Source of the DNA: Streptomyces sclerotialus
GTDB lineage: Bacteria; Actinomycetota; Actinomycetes; Streptomycetales; Streptomycetaceae
Assembly (NCBI RefSeq): GCF_040907265.1
Contig: NZ_JBFOHP010000002.1
Location: forward strand, 4,836,001 to 4,900,000
Reading direction: 5' to 3'
Length of the DNA stretch: 64,000 nucleotides
Below, piece by piece: positions 11,128 to 18,277 of this stretch (position 1 is its first letter; the number at the start of each line of letters is the position of its first letter). A model generated the notes under the pieces. That model saw only the letters and a list, made by a program, of their open reading frames with translations. It searched no databases and was not told the origin of the DNA. The translations under genes were made by a program, and so were the position numbers.

Positions 11128-12609
11128 TCAGGCCGAGAGCGCGCGGAGCTGGTCCAGGAACCACTGCGTGGGCGGCAGCGCCGTCGCCGCCATGGCCAGC
11201 CGCTTCGAGCGGTCGGCGCGCTCGTCCTGGGGCATCGTCAGGGCTTCGTGCAGCGCCCCGGCCGTGGCCTCGACGTCGTACGGATTGATCACCAGCGCGT
11301 CGTCCGCCAGCTCCGCGCAGGCCCCGGCCTCCCGGGACAGCACCAGCGCGCAGCCCGCCTCCGACACCACCGGCACCTCCTTCGCGACCAGGTTCATGCC
11401 GTCGCGGATGGGGTTGACCAGCGCGACGTCGGCGAGCCGGTAGGCGGCCAGGGAGCGCGCGAAGTCGTCCTTCACGTGCAGCACGACCGGCAGCCAGCCG
11501 TCCGTGCCGAACTCGTCGTTGATCTCCCCGGCCAGCCGCGAGACCTCCTCGGTGTACTCCCGGTACACCGCCAGGTCCTGCCGCGACGGATAGGCGAACG
11601 CTATGTGGACCACCCGGCCGCGCCACTCCGGCCGGTCGGTCAGCAGCCGCCGGTACGCCAGCAGCCCGCGCACGATGTTCTTCGACAGCTCCGTGCGGTC
11701 CACCCGCACGATCGTCTTCCGCGGCGCATCGTCCTCGTCGGTGCCGATCTGCGCGCGCAGGTCCGCCAGCCGGTCGTCGACGTCCGGCTGCCGGGACCGG
11801 TCGCGCAGGAAGTCCGCGTCGGCACCCAGGCCGTGCACGCCGAGCCGGGTGGTCCGGCCCTCGTACGTGACGCGCAGGCCCGCGTCCCCGTCCCGCGCCA
11901 CCTCGGCACCCAGCACCGCCGCGCAGCACTCGGCGAACGCCTCGGCCCAGCGGCGGGTCAGGAACGCCGCCCGGTCGCCGCCCAGGACGCCGCGCAGCAC
12001 CTGCGCCGCGACGTCGTCCGGCAGCAGCCGGAAGTAGTCCGGCGGCGCCCACGGGGTGTGCGAGAAGTGGCCGATGCGCAGGTCCGGGCGGCGCTCGCGG
12101 AGCAGCCCCGGGACCAGCGTGAGGTGGTAGTCCTGCACGAGGACGGCGGCGCCCGGCGCGGCGGACTCGGCGAGCGCGTCGGCGAAGGCGGCGTTGTACG
12201 CCTCGTACGCCGCCCACTGGCCGCGGAAGTCCGCGTCGAACGCCGGCTCCAGCGGCGTCTGGTACAGCAGGTGGTGGACGAACCACAGCACGGAGTTGGC
12301 GATGCCGTTGTACGCGTCGGCGAACACCCCGGGCGGGATGTCCAGCATCCGGACGGACTGCCCGCCGGTGTCGGCGGGGTCCAGCAGCCCGTCACCGGCG
12401 GCGGCCCGCCGGGCCGCCTCCCGGTCGCCGTCGCCGAGGGCGGCACACACCCAGACGGCTCCGGCGTCGGAGCCGATCGCGGACAGGCCGGAGACCAGTC
12501 CGCCGCCGCCGCGCCGGGAGGTGAGCGTGCCGTCCTCGCCCAGGGCGTAGGAGACCGGGCCGCGGTTGGACGCGACGAGAACCTGGGCACCTGAGCTGGA
12601 GGAGACCAT
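11128..12609 (-). CDS. otsA: Alpha,alpha-trehalose-6-phosphate synthase (GT20)
   Basis: Transfers glucose from UDP-glucose (or GDP/ADP-glucose) to glucose-6-phosphate. The 493-residue protein has the GT20 landmarks: N-terminal SNRGPVSY and GGGGLVSGL donor loop, LVQDYHLTLVP, GHFSHTPWAPP, RVDRTELSKNI with the donor-binding Arg, LVNPIRDGMNLVAKE and LSREAGACAEL near the end. ATG 12609 directly precedes VSSSSGAQVLVASNRGPVS. It is downstream of gpgS on the same strand, separated by a strong stem-loop, and converges with otsB. Confidence 0.95.
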   Translation of the reverse strand: MVSSSSGAQVLVASNRGPVSYALGEDGTLTSRRGGGGLVSGLSAIGSDAGAVWVCAALGDGDREAARRAAAGDGLLDPADTGGQSVRMLDIPPGVFADAYNGIANSVLWFVHHLLYQTPLEPAFDADFRGQWAAYEAYNAAFADALAESAAPGAAVLVQDYHLTLVPGLLRERRPDLRIGHFSHTPWAPPDYFRLLPDDVAAQVLRGVLGGDRAAFLTRRWAEAFAECCAAVLGAEVARDGDAGLRVTYEGRTTRLGVHGLGADADFLRDRSRQPDVDDRLADLRAQIGTDEDDAPRKTIVRVDRTELSKNIVRGLLAYRRLLTDRPEWRGRVVHIAFAYPSRQDLAVYREYTEEVSRLAGEINDEFGTDGWLPVVLHVKDDFARSLAAYRLADVALVNPIRDGMNLVAKEVPVVSEAGCALVLSREAGACAELADDALVINPYDVEATAGALHEALTMPQDERADRSKRLAMAATALPPTQWFLDQLRALSA

Positions 12610-12743: not shown

Positions 12744-13709
12744 TCAGGCCGCCCGCCGCGCCTCGTACTCCGGTACGCCGCGCATCGGCGGCCGCTCCTC
12801 GGTGTCCACGTCGGTCGTACGCGGGACGAAGCCGCCCGACTCGCCCCGGTCGAACTGGGTGAGCCGGGGCCGTACGAGGTGCCCGCGCGCCAGCCGCAGC
12901 TGGGCGGTGCGGTAGATCGCCGCGGCCATCCTGCCCAAGGCCTGCCCGTCCTGGTGCCGGTGCTTGCGCACCCCCACGTCCACCTGCGCCAGCGCGTCCA
13001 GGCCGACCGTGTGCAGCGCGTCGACCAGCAGTCCCAGCTCGACGCCGTACCCGACGGGGAAGGGCAGCCGCTCCAGCAGCGAGCGGCGCGCCGCGTACTC
13101 GCCGCCCAGCGGCTGGACGAAGCCGGCCAGCTGCGGCCAGTGCAGATTGAGCAGCGGGCGGGCCACCAGCTCGGTGACCCGGCCGCCCTGGCCCGCCCTG
13201 GGACCGCCGGCCTCGCCGCCCAGCGGCCGGTCGTACATGGCCTTCACGAACTGCACGTCCGGGTCGGTCAGCAGCGGCCCGACGATCCCGGACACGAAGT
13301 CCGCGGAGAACTCGCGCAGGTCGGCGTCGACGAAACAGACGATGTCGCCGCTGGTCACCAGCAGCGAGCGCCACAGCACCTCGCCCTTGCCGGGCACCGT
13401 CGCCAGCCGGGGCAGGATCGCGTCGCGGTGCACGACCCGGGCGCCGGCCGCGGCCGCGACCTCGGAGGTGCGGTCGGTGGAGCCGGAGTCCACCACGACC
13501 AGCTCATCGACCAGCGGCACCGCGTCGGACATCAGGTCACGGCGGATGATCTCCACGATCGTGCCGACCGTGGCTTCCTCGTCGAGCGCGGGCAGCACGA
13601 CGCTGACCGTCCGCCCCGTACGGCTCTTCGCGGCCAACAGCTGGTCGAGCGGTCGGTCGGCGGCGGACCAGGAGCGTCCGGCCAGCCAGCGCTCCACCTC
13701 TTCCAGCAC
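12744..13709 (-). CDS. gpgS: Glucosyl-3-phosphoglycerate synthase (GT81)
   Basis: Transfers glucose from an NDP-glucose to 3-phosphoglycerate, the first step toward glucosylglycerate, which is used as a compatible solute or as primer for methylglucose polysaccharides. The 321-residue GT-A protein has VVLPALDEEATVG, the VDELVVVDSGSTDRT nucleotide site, PGKGEVLWRSL, the metal motif FVDADLREF, and the acceptor loop VGYGVELGLLVD. GTG 13709 has AAGGAG 8 nt upstream. No gpgP phosphatase is adjacent. Placement beside otsA/otsB groups the two glucose-based solutes. Confidence 0.9.
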   Translation of the reverse strand: MLEEVERWLAGRSWSAADRPLDQLLAAKSRTGRTVSVVLPALDEEATVGTIVEIIRRDLMSDAVPLVDELVVVDSGSTDRTSEVAAAAGARVVHRDAILPRLATVPGKGEVLWRSLLVTSGDIVCFVDADLREFSADFVSGIVGPLLTDPDVQFVKAMYDRPLGGEAGGPRAGQGGRVTELVARPLLNLHWPQLAGFVQPLGGEYAARRSLLERLPFPVGYGVELGLLVDALHTVGLDALAQVDVGVRKHRHQDGQALGRMAAAIYRTAQLRLARGHLVRPRLTQFDRGESGGFVPRTTDVDTEERPPMRGVPEYEARRAA

Positions 13710-13725
13710 GTATCCGTCTCCTTTT

Positions 13726-13766
13726 GCTACGCGTCTGAGCCATCCGGCTACGCGATGTGAGCCATC
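13726..13766. repeat. Direct repeats in the gpgS leader
   Basis: GCTACGCG followed by GAGCCATC occurs twice (13726-13744 and 13747-13766), with a period of 21-22 bp, immediately upstream of the gpgS ribosome-binding site. Two helical turns of spacing is typical of cooperative regulator binding; no known motif fits. Confidence 0.5.
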
Positions 13767-13890
13767 TCGCGGTTCGGACGGCTATCTCAACCGTCCACCC
13801 CTTCGGTTACAGTCTTGAACAACGCGGATGACCACCGCATGCCGGGGTCACCGCTGAACAAATGCCTGCCTTTCGCACGCAGGCCATACC

Positions 13891-14047
13891 GCTCATCCAG
13901 AGGGGCAGAGGGATACGGCCCGTTGAAGCCCCGGCAACCCTCCAGCCGGTCTTGCCGCCAGGACGCTGATGTCCGCCGCGCGAGGCTCCCGGCTAGGGAA
14001 GGTGCCAAATCCGTCTCACGGCGAGATGCGTCGTGAGGAAGATGAGG
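13891..14047 (+). promoter_or_regulatory. SAM-I (S-box) riboswitch controlling the threonine-synthase-like gene
   Basis: The S-box core is plain: GAAGCCCCGGCAACC (13925-13939) and GGTGCCAAATCC (14001-14012). P1 is closed by CTCATC (13892-13897) with GATGAG (14041-14046). P4 is CTCACG (14015-14020) with CGTGAG (14032-14037), completing the four-way junction. P3 is long and GC-rich. The 3' strand of P1 runs into the GAGGAG sequence (14044-14049) that serves as ribosome-binding site, so SAM binding should block translation directly. I see no separate terminator hairpin. Confidence 0.92.
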
Positions 14048-14065
14048 AGAAAGGGCCTCGCCTCC

Positions 14066-15349
14066 ATGGCTGTGCAAGCTGCTGAGAACACCGCTACCTC
14101 CGTCTCCCTCGGTCCCGCCGCGGCGCTGTCCTGCCGCGAGTGCGGCACCCGCTTCCCGCTCGGCCCGATCTTCGCGTGCCAGGAATGTTTCGGGCCGCTC
14201 GAAGTGGCCTACGACCTGCCGAGCGGCGACCCCGAGGGCCTCCGGAAGCAGATCGAGGCCGGTCCGGACAACATCTGGCGGTACGCGCCGCTGCTGCCCG
14301 TCCCCGCGGACGTGGCCGACAAGCCCAACCTGAACCCCGGCTTCACCAAGCTGGTCAAGGCCGACCGCCTCGCCGCCGAGCTCGGCGTCACCGGCGGCCT
14401 GTACGTGAAGGACGACTCCGGCAACCCGACGCACTCCTTCAAGGACCGCGTCGTGGCCATCGCCGTCGAGGCGGCCCGCGCCTTCGGCTTCACCACCCTC
14501 TCCTGCTCCTCCACCGGCAACCTCGCCGGCGCCGTCGGCGCCGCAGCGCGCCGGGCCGGCTTCCGCTCCTGCGTGTTCATCCCGCACGACCTGGAGGCGG
14601 GCAAGGTCGTCATGGCCGCGGTGTACGGCGGCGACCTGGTCGGCATCGAGGGCAACTACGACGACGTCAACCGCTTCTGCTCCGAGCTCATCGGCGACCC
14701 GCTGGGCGAGGGCTGGGGCTTCGTGAACGTCAACCTCCGCCCGTACTACGGCGAGGGTTCCAAGACGCTCGCGTACGAGATCTGCGAGCAGCTGGGCTGG
14801 GAGCTGCCGGACCAGCTCGTCATCCCGATCGCTTCGGGCTCGCAGCTCACCAAGATCGACAAGGGGCTCAAGGAGCTGATCAAGCTCGGCCTGGTCGAGG
14901 ACAAGCCGTACAAGATCTTCGGCGCCCAGGCCGAGGGCTGCTCGCCGGTGTCCACCGCCTTCAAGGCCGGCCACGACGTGGTCCGCCCGCAGAAGCCGAA
15001 CACCATCGCCAAGTCGCTGGCCATCGGCAACCCGGCGGACGGCCCGTACGTGCTCGACATCGCCCGCCGCACCGGCGGCGCGGTCGAGGACGTCGACGAC
15101 GAGCAGGTCGTGGACGCGATCAAGCTGCTGGCCCGCACCGAGGGCATCTTCGCGGAGACCGCGGGCGGCGTGACCGTCGGCGTCACCAAGAAGCTGATCG
15201 AGAACGGGCAGATCGACCCGGCGAAGTCGCTGGTCGTCCTGAACACCGGCGACGGCCTGAAGACGCTGGACGCAGTGGCGCCGACGACCGGCCCGACCGC
15301 GACCATCCGCCCGAGCCTGGACTCCTTCCGCGAGGCCGGCCTCGGCTGA
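14066..15349 (+). CDS. thrC: Threonine-synthase-family PLP enzyme under SAM riboswitch; possible O-phosphohomoserine-dependent homocysteine synthase
   Basis: Fold-type II PLP enzyme of 427 residues. By family it converts O-phosphohomoserine to threonine. An N-terminal zinc-ribbon-like Cys set (C23, C26, C38, C41 in CRECGTRFPL and ACQECF) precedes the PLP domain. The Schiff-base Lys is K126 in NPTHSFKDR, and the PLP-phosphate loop is SSTGNLAGA. ATG 14066 (MAVQAAEN) is the only sensible start: GTG 14033 and ATG 14042 lie inside P4 and P1 of the riboswitch. The spacing from GAGGAG is long (16 nt). A SAM switch upstream and a ThiS-like sulfur-carrier gene 68 bp downstream point to homocysteine/methionine synthesis rather than threonine. 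That is inference; plain threonine synthase remains possible. Confidence 0.88.
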   Translation: MAVQAAENTATSVSLGPAAALSCRECGTRFPLGPIFACQECFGPLEVAYDLPSGDPEGLRKQIEAGPDNIWRYAPLLPVPADVADKPNLNPGFTKLVKADRLAAELGVTGGLYVKDDSGNPTHSFKDRVVAIAVEAARAFGFTTLSCSSTGNLAGAVGAAARRAGFRSCVFIPHDLEAGKVVMAAVYGGDLVGIEGNYDDVNRFCSELIGDPLGEGWGFVNVNLRPYYGEGSKTLAYEICEQLGWELPDQLVIPIASGSQLTKIDKGLKELIKLGLVEDKPYKIFGAQAEGCSPVSTAFKAGHDVVRPQKPNTIAKSLAIGNPADGPYVLDIARRTGGAVEDVDDEQVVDAIKLLARTEGIFAETAGGVTVGVTKKLIENGQIDPAKSLVVLNTGDGLKTLDAVAPTTGPTATIRPSLDSFREAGLG

Positions 15350-15417
15350 GCCCCGGCCCCCGGCCGGAACGCTGCCCCGCACTCGTTGCCACTGAACCCG
15401 GAAGGCAGAGAAACACC

Positions 15418-15696
15418 ATGAGCGTGAACGTCCGCATCCCCACCATCCTGCGCACCTACACCGGCGGCCGGGCCGAGGTGCCCGCCGAGGGCGCGAAGCT
15501 CTCCGAGGTCATCGCCGACCTGGAGAAGAACCACACCGGCATCGCGGCCCGCGTCCTGGACGACCAGGGCAAGCTGCGCCGCTTCGTGAACGTCTACGTC
15601 AACGACGACGACGTGCGTTTCGAGGGCGGTCTGGAGGCGGCGACGCCCGACGGCGCCAGCGTCTCGATCATCCCCGCGGTGGCGGGCGGCTGCTGA
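15418..15696 (+). CDS. ThiS/MoaD-family sulfur-carrier protein ending in Gly-Gly-Cys
   Basis: A 92-residue ubiquitin-fold protein of the MoaD/ThiS/CysO group. It starts MSVNVRIPTILRTYTGG, has FVNVYVNDDDVRF and ends VSIIPAVAGGC. Such proteins carry sulfide as a C-terminal Gly-Gly thiocarboxylate after adenylation by an E1-like enzyme (MoeZ/ThiF type). Here a Cys follows the diglycine, so a protease must expose Gly-Gly first, as a metalloprotease does for HcyS-Ala in Wolinella. It is second in the riboswitch-controlled unit and is closed by a perfect 17-bp terminator, so its natural partner is the PLP enzyme upstream. No E1 or JAMM protease gene is in the window. Confidence 0.9.
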   Translation: MSVNVRIPTILRTYTGGRAEVPAEGAKLSEVIADLEKNHTGIAARVLDDQGKLRRFVNVYVNDDDVRFEGGLEAATPDGASVSIIPAVAGGC

Positions 15697-15774
15697 AAAG
15701 CTTCCGTACGCCCCTTTGCGCGCCCTGTGTGCGCCCCTTGTGCACCGTCCGGTGAATGACGGCACGCACTCCCC

Positions 15775-15815
15775 GGAATCGCCCCGTCCGCAGCAGAAGC
15801 GGACGGGGCGATTCC
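15775..15815 (+). terminator. Perfect 17-bp hairpin ending the thrC-like/sulfur-carrier operon
   Basis: The left arm 15775-15791 begins GGAATCGCCCC, the loop is AGCAGAA, and the right arm 15799-15815 is the exact complement. It lies 79 bp after the sulfur-carrier stop. T-rich sequence follows (ATGTCGTTAAAG). Confidence 0.85.
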
Positions 15816-16152
15816 ATGTCGTTAAAGGCGATACAGTTGAGGTGAATCCTCTTCGCGCGCGTGCCTGACGCATATGAGAACGCGACAAGATGTGCCCAAA
15901 GTGTGTGCGCAATTTGTCGCGTTGATGAGCTATGCCCGGCCCGGCTTGCCCAGAATTATCGCGACTTCGGCCGTTATCGGCGAATGGTCGTGGGCAGAAT
16001 TCTCGTCCGATTGACCTGTTGCGCTGGGCATCGGTGCAGATACATTCAGCGGCGGTCGACGCGTTCCGGCGCACACCCTCCTTGGGGGTGAGGTCTGACC
16101 CGGGTCCGCGGAGTGCGGTCCTGCGCAAGGGCCAGCAATAGGGGAGTTAGGA
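15816..16152 (+). other. Long AT-richer leader/promoter region of the cold-shock gene
   Basis: This gene-free stretch is noticeably less GC-rich than its surroundings and probably carries the promoter and long 5' untranslated region usual for cspA-type genes. TTGACC at 16011-16016 is a possible -35 element, but I find no well-spaced -10. The ribosome-binding site GGGGAG stands just before the ATG. Confidence 0.4.

Positions 16153-16552: not shown

Positions 16553-18277
<1,725 letters not shown>

Follow-up and report, generated by a model that had tools for sequence, protein, structure and literature searches.

Why should a protein resembling threonine synthase be encoded behind a SAM riboswitch and beside a sulfur-carrier protein? 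The question is raised by a short operon of Streptomyces sclerotialus, metM–metO, which lies in the stretch of 64 000 nucleotides that was analysed (the window; C2:4836001-4900000) in a genome of 8.28 Mb on two contigs. The operon very probably makes homocysteine from O-phosphohomoserine and carrier-bound sulfur. The features of the unit, in window positions, are as follows.

13890..14048, + strand: SAM-I (S-box) riboswitch aptamer in the metM leader (RF00162)
14044..14059, + strand: short hairpin GAGG/CCTC with AGAAAGGG in the loop (fold computed without ligand; conserved leader sequence)
14066..15349, + strand: metM, threonine-synthase-like PLP enzyme of 427 aa (TIGR00260, PF00291)
15418..15696, + strand: metO, ubiquitin-fold (ThiS/MoaD-fold) sulfur-carrier protein of 92 aa, ending ...PAVAGGC (PF02597)
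15775..15815, + strand: perfect 17 bp hairpin at the end of the unit (folding energy against shuffles)

The elements from which the original prediction was assembled were all recovered. Its complete SAM-I aptamer matched RF00162 with 75.4 bits (gathering score 44.4, E 7e-16) at 13890-14048 (+); its ThrC-family enzyme with an intact PLP lysine was borne out by TIGR00260, PF00291 and the motif THSFKDR; its ThiS/MoaD-like gene 68 bp further on matched PF02597 (57 bits at 15418-15696), the start of metO being 68 nt past the metM stop; and the perfect 17 bp hairpin closing the unit was found at 15775-15815, though without a T-run. This hairpin comprises 17 perfect pairs and a 7 nt loop (−41.3 kcal/mol, z −5.56), and none of 200 shuffles was equally stable; it is probably a transcription terminator lacking a U-tract.

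The O-phosphohomoserine route was already published in 2024 and the window operon is a same-genus member of the system described. A literature search for earlier reports of the operon or the riboswitch led only to PMC12172450 (2025; Moonlighting activity of threonine synthase in cyanobacterial cell death) and thence to Hasebe et al. 2024 (Appl Environ Microbiol 90:e01247-24). According to PMC12172450, MetM of Streptomyces albulus converts O-phosphohomoserine to homocysteine, its gene has a SAM riboswitch upstream and MetM completely prevents methionine auxotrophy in that species; the original prediction, which mentioned that such a route might already have been proposed for Streptomyces, was correct on this point. 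The same paper reports that a gene beside a metM relative in a cyanobacterium, annotated as a sulfur-carrier protein, resembles S. albulus metO, that this 51.6%-identical relative acted in vitro as a threonine synthase (O-phosphohomoserine to threonine) and as a deaminase, that it did not raise methionine in cells and that an assay with sodium sulfide was meant to mimic MetM. PMC12452182 deals with other riboswitch arrangements and PMC5764234 with a different homocysteine pathway, citing Krishnamoorthy and Begley 2011.

Compared by description, the window operon and S. albulus MetM/MetO share a ThrC-like PLP enzyme, an upstream SAM riboswitch, the genus and metO, and no difference was found in the account given by PMC12172450. 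Hasebe and colleagues reportedly place metO downstream of metM, with thiocarboxylated MetO as the sulfur donor, and are said to describe the pair as conserved in Streptomyces. The absence of MetA and MetX is regarded as typical of MetM hosts, although MetX was found in 7 of the 33 genomes of the genus. The window operon combines the features by which MetM/MetO is recognized, namely a ThrC-like enzyme with an adjacent carrier, a SAM riboswitch and a host without MetA or MetX. Its logic is that of the CysM–CysO–Mec system, which uses O-phosphoserine and thiocarboxylated CysO: a PF00291 PLP enzyme, a ubiquitin-fold carrier and a JAMM protease are common to both, whereas the window unit would have O-phosphohomoserine and homocysteine in place of O-phosphoserine and cysteine, carries a SAM riboswitch and is separate from the mec–cysO–cysM genes of the same genome. 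In the Wolinella succinogenes pathway of Krishnamoorthy and Begley, a thiocarboxylated carrier and a JAMM-type protease reportedly serve to make homocysteine, and the enzyme is said to be of the MetY type (PF01053) and to act on acyl-homoserine; unlike that HcyS-type pathway, the window operon has a PF00291 enzyme without a PF01053 match.

Against the threonine synthase model TIGR00260, MetM scored 271.5 bits and passed the cut-off (167.1); it matched PF00291 (222 bits) only and not PF01053. It belongs to the same superfamily as ThrC, with 35% identity to the ThrC of this genome over 345 aligned columns, and would share its substrate if it acts as reported. The PLP-lysine motif THSFKDR is intact and shared by 129/130 relatives; STGN is found in all 130. 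The two proteins differ in an extra CxxC...CxxC segment in the N-terminal part of MetM, present in 130/130 relatives and absent from the ThrC of the genome, and in an altered loop at the ThrC NSVNPVRIEG site: the ThrC stretch NSVNPVRIEGQKT, which binds the phosphate in Thermus ThrC, corresponds to N-LRPYYGEGSKT in MetM. The form RP[YF][YF][GA]EGSK[TS] was found in 128/130 relatives, the remaining two (L096 and L104) being off by one residue. The genes differ as well, metM being under SAM control, next to a carrier gene and outside the hom–thrB operon.

The closest named relatives among the best 80 of 497 were those of Streptomyces sp. Ru73 and S. violens (both 98%); S. albulus is absent from these 80 named loci. 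Orthology of the window protein to S. albulus MetM is nevertheless very likely, because a single match was found in each of the 33 genomes of the genus, and by analogy the metM product is probably a homocysteine synthase using O-phosphohomoserine. Listed from an upstream GTG, the reading frame would encode 438 aa, and from ATG 14066 it encodes 427 aa. The latter start was preferred and starts at GTG 14033 or ATG 14042 were rejected, since the ATG internal to P1 and the 14066-equivalent ATG are in different reading frames (their spacing is not divisible by three) in 27 of 76 parsable leaders out of the 80 named.

Apart from the aptamer before metM, RF00162 had no match at E up to 1e-3 anywhere in the 8.28 Mb genome (150 of 460 first-look candidates scored). 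A SAM-I riboswitch lies just 5′ of metM on the same strand in 20/20 loci of 19 other families (19 of the 25 other MetM families, one locus each except for two from f14; f7, f8, f10, f11, f28 and f30 lay outside the sample) and in 20/20 same-genus loci scored out of 30 fetched, the 30 including that of the window; with the window counted, it precedes metM in 41/41 loci scored. The ribosome-binding region of metM borders directly on the 3′ strand of P1 (GATGAG, 14041-14046), and GATGAGG followed by CYTC was present in the leaders of 80/80 named relatives, which are the best 80 of 497 confirmed. The start codon follows P1 after 19 nt in the window and after 16–21 nt in the 76 parsed leaders of these 80, with 19 or 20 nt in 68/76.

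The GAGG/CCTC hairpin (14044-14059) overlaps the 3′ strand of P1 and hence excludes full P1 pairing; in the computed ligand-free fold the hairpin was present and P1 absent. It may be a translational expression platform, as judged from the sequence and its fold. The folding of the whole leader was no better than that of shuffles (z −0.12), and a pattern scan of 13700-15900 gave no classical T-run terminator. With the start codon only 19 nt beyond P1, SAM most likely controls metM at translation. Transcription attenuation by the riboswitch was considered unlikely, given the lack of a T-run terminator in 13700-15900 and the short distance (16–21 nt) from P1 to the start.

The original prediction had also asked whether the genome holds another threonine synthase and whether its classical homocysteine pathway is complete. 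A second ThrC-family gene (315.9 bits) is present at C2:5.607 Mb between those for homoserine dehydrogenase and a GHMP kinase, forming a hom–thrC–thrB operon, so that the threonine-operon role is filled there and not by MetM. The classical pathway is incomplete: MetA had no match in the genome and MetX gave only short matches of 20.8–24.5 bits, none above noise, alongside a cystathionine gamma-synthase and a beta-lyase match. No control genome (0/14) and no surveyed genome (0/295) attained the 500 bits set as the curated MetX cut-off, and our own E-value threshold was used instead (E up to 1e-40, at which the model matches 6/14 controls). Six PF01053 proteins exceeded the cut-off, five of them strongly; cystathionine gamma-synthase (PRK07811, 679.8 bits, cut-off 513), cystathionine beta-lyase (TIGR01324, 460.8 bits, cut-off 365.9) and cystathionine gamma-lyase (543.7 bits, cut-off 440) were assigned. 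Among the 25 families shown for each of the five strong proteins, two proteins passed no cut-off and none passed that for a sulfhydrylase. Transsulfuration enzymes thus exist, yet a source of the acylated substrate was not found in the genome. An operon at C2:3.28 Mb encodes a JAMM protease, a CysO-like carrier and a PF00291 enzyme (mec–cysO–cysM); the metM–metO unit is not this JAMM and CysM-type operon. The JAMM family had one match in the genome. For ThiF there was a single full match, in a MoeZ-like protein that also has a rhodanese domain; a weaker split match at C2:5.409 Mb and another below the cut-off were also seen.

The distribution of the system was surveyed in 295 class genomes with a completeness of 95% or more, the same set being searched for MetM, MetX, carrier and JAMM protease. 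MetM (E up to 1e-60) was found in 183/295; two of these matches (G007 and G224) were by far the weakest and are possibly something other than MetM. With E up to 1e-40, MetX was found in 197/295; four of these matches (G016, G041, G106 and G167) were much weaker, and without them the overlap of MetM and MetX is 85 genomes and four genomes have neither. A carrier of the MetO/CysO type (E up to 1e-5) occurred in 233/295, a criterion that also accepts CysO, so that a dedicated MetO cannot be deduced for every genome from this count, and a JAMM protease (E up to 1e-8) in 227/295. All 183 MetM genomes had such a carrier and all 183 a JAMM protease. MetX was missing from 95 of them and present in 88, and it was present in 109 of the 112 genomes without MetM, three of the 295 having neither (Fisher p about 1e-21 for MetM versus MetX, phylogeny ignored). 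MetM is therefore not always the sole route to homocysteine. In the genus, MetM was found in 33/33 genomes and MetX as well in 7/33.

The neighbourhood of metM was judged at 150 listed MetM places, for 129 of which a carrier was listed in the same genome; it lay within 500 bp in 128 of these 129 (2–288 nt, median 38.5), including 33/33 in the genus. Since only the carriers most like MetO were listed, the other 21 places are biased towards genomes without a carrier. Six of these were fetched: an adjacent carrier was present in three (G080, G061 and G042) and not in three (G008, G052 and G044). Among the 150, 131 are adjacent, four (including G214) have none within about 2 kb and 15 are unjudged. 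In the sample of 20 other-family representatives, four (L088–L091) had no carrier within about 2 kb of metM. One genome without an adjacent carrier (G008) has no MetX match either, so that it must depend on a carrier encoded far away, on sulfide or on a different route.

That a ThrC-like enzyme and a thiocarboxylated carrier make homocysteine from O-phosphohomoserine, as originally predicted, is supported by the literature, the riboswitch, the hom–thrC–thrB operon elsewhere and the lack of MetA and MetX. MetM could instead be a second threonine synthase with a fortuitous carrier neighbour: it scores over the TIGR00260 cut-off, the named relatives in its best 120 of 7998 are so called and, according to PMC12172450, the 51.6%-identical cyanobacterial relative makes threonine in vitro. 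We regard this as extremely unlikely in view of the full threonine operon elsewhere, the riboswitch in all 41 loci scored, the adjacent carriers, the complementarity with MetX and the replacement of the ThrC NSVNPVRIEGQKT stretch in 128/130 relatives. The activities of the cyanobacterial relative do suggest by analogy that MetM could be bifunctional.

The source of sulfur was weighed in the same manner. Synthesis from free sulfide in vivo, with MetO auxiliary or serving another use, would agree with the four of 20 representatives that lack an adjacent carrier and with the sodium sulfide assay mentioned in PMC12172450; it is unlikely, as a MetO/CysO-type carrier (CysO counted) and a JAMM protease accompany MetM in 183/183 genomes and the carrier is adjacent in at least 131 of the 150 listed. 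The cystathionine gamma-synthase of this genome could in principle use O-phosphohomoserine with cysteine, and a plant-like main route through this enzyme and then the beta-lyase, leaving metM–metO secondary, would suit a genome with a gamma-synthase and a beta-lyase match in which no acyltransferase was found. Neither gene, however, has a SAM-I riboswitch (the one found genome-wide precedes metM), the presence of cystathionine gamma-lyase means that these enzymes fit reverse transsulfuration, and the complete prevention of methionine auxotrophy by S. albulus MetM, as given in PMC12172450, also speaks against such a route, which is very unlikely.

MetO (57 bits against PF02597) is 54% identical to the CysO of the genome. 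The carriers of this genome end in GG (ThiS and MoaD), GGSR (CysO) and GGC (MetO), the Gly-Gly of MetO thus being present but capped by Cys. Among the 30 same-genus carriers, that of the window included, 11 end in GGC and 19 in GG; in the named loci GGC ends 44/79 and GG 35/79 (79 of 80 had a readable carrier end, L160 being cut by the contig end), and in carriers from other families 4/16 and 12/16. In the 75 loci read as DNA, the two forms differ by a single TGC codon ahead of the stop, present in 44 and absent from 31, and on a quick tree of metM DNA (named loci and window) the tail switches at least ten times. The GG-Cys tail was consequently rejected as a defining mark of MetO, GG being found in 19/30, 35/79 and 12/16 of these sets.

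A Cys-ended carrier would have to be trimmed before thiocarboxylation of its Gly-Gly. Mec is the obvious candidate for trimming MetO because it is the sole JAMM protease detected in the genome and is encoded beside cysO. The mycobacterial CysO–cysteine adduct, which also ends in GG-Cys, is the natural substrate of Mec. The variable tail of MetO suggests that Mec trims it as well as CysO. Mec may thus serve two sulfur-carrier pathways, the gene-encoded GG-Cys of MetO mimicking the CysO–cysteine end so that its trimming costs evolution nothing; we hold this tentatively, at slightly under an even chance. No paper on Mec acting on MetO was found by title in a search that mostly excluded the subscription literature, and absence from print is not claimed.

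The following sequence of events would account for these observations. O-Phosphohomoserine formed by Hom and ThrB would be diverted by MetM away from threonine synthesis; the PLP chemistry of MetM would remove the phosphate and the sulfur of thiocarboxylated MetO would be added, presumably giving a MetO–homocysteine adduct, from which free homocysteine and then methionine and SAM would be derived. The carrier Gly-Gly would be adenylated and sulfurated by MoeZ (ThiF plus rhodanese); mycobacterial MoeZR thiocarboxylates CysO, as stated in PMC3227635. Mec would free the homocysteine and, in carriers ending in GG-Cys, would first remove the Cys. SAM would close the loop through the riboswitch.

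The route explains how methionine can be made without a homoserine acyltransferase in many actinomycetes. It also implies that the label threonine synthase is probably wrong for many database entries: every named protein in the best 120 of 7998 MetM relatives bears it. The class-wide complementarity with MetX and the JAMM protease in 183/183 MetM genomes provide independent genomic support for the published route and point to Mec as a candidate missing player. If Mec is indeed shared, this would explain how the tail can be gained or lost by one codon while all MetM genomes examined retain a JAMM protease, and cysteine and methionine synthesis would be coupled through one protease and one sulfurating enzyme.

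The genes flanking metM, which encodes the probable homocysteine synthase, were named by eye from their sequences as a trehalose-6-phosphate-synthase-like gene and groEL; in the window they occupy the following positions:

11128-12609, minus strand, trehalose-6-phosphate-synthase-like gene on one side of metM
16655-18277, plus strand, groEL on the other side of metM

Among the metM loci fetched from other families and named in the same manner, groEL was also found near metM in L088 and L089 and a trehalose-6-phosphate-synthase-like gene in L088 and L091. A c-di-AMP riboswitch lies close to metM in one other family (L094:4123-4273, minus strand).

A search of the fetched loci L088 (family f9), L089 (f12), L090 (f39) and L091 (f15) revealed no carrier gene within ~2 kb of metM, and the SAM-I riboswitch is kept at metM in all four. 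The S. sclerotialus genome (G000), which encodes four carriers, contains a second, weaker ThiF-like stretch at C2:5408682-5409479 (minus strand), which scores 27 and 34.6 bits (63.5 combined).

At E-value thresholds of 1e-60 for MetM and 1e-40 for MetX, the homoserine acyltransferase of the classical route, a MetX match was obtained beside MetM in seven of the 33 genomes of the genus (G032, G056, G076, G103, G130, G157 and G246); because both proteins were matched there, two homocysteine routes may coexist in these genomes. Neither protein was matched at these thresholds in three of the 295 class genomes (G009, G062 and G236). Two further genomes of the genus of G009 do have MetM, so G009 may owe its missing matches to a gap in the assembly or may use yet another route.

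The C-terminus of MetO, the sulfur carrier encoded beside metM, switches between GG and GGC among named Streptomyces and relatives (window 15684-15696; loci L108-L187), with at least ten changes counted on a metM tree of the window and 80 named relatives, which were the best of 497 confirmed ones. This alternation is relevant to carrier processing, and the metM-metO finding stands without it.
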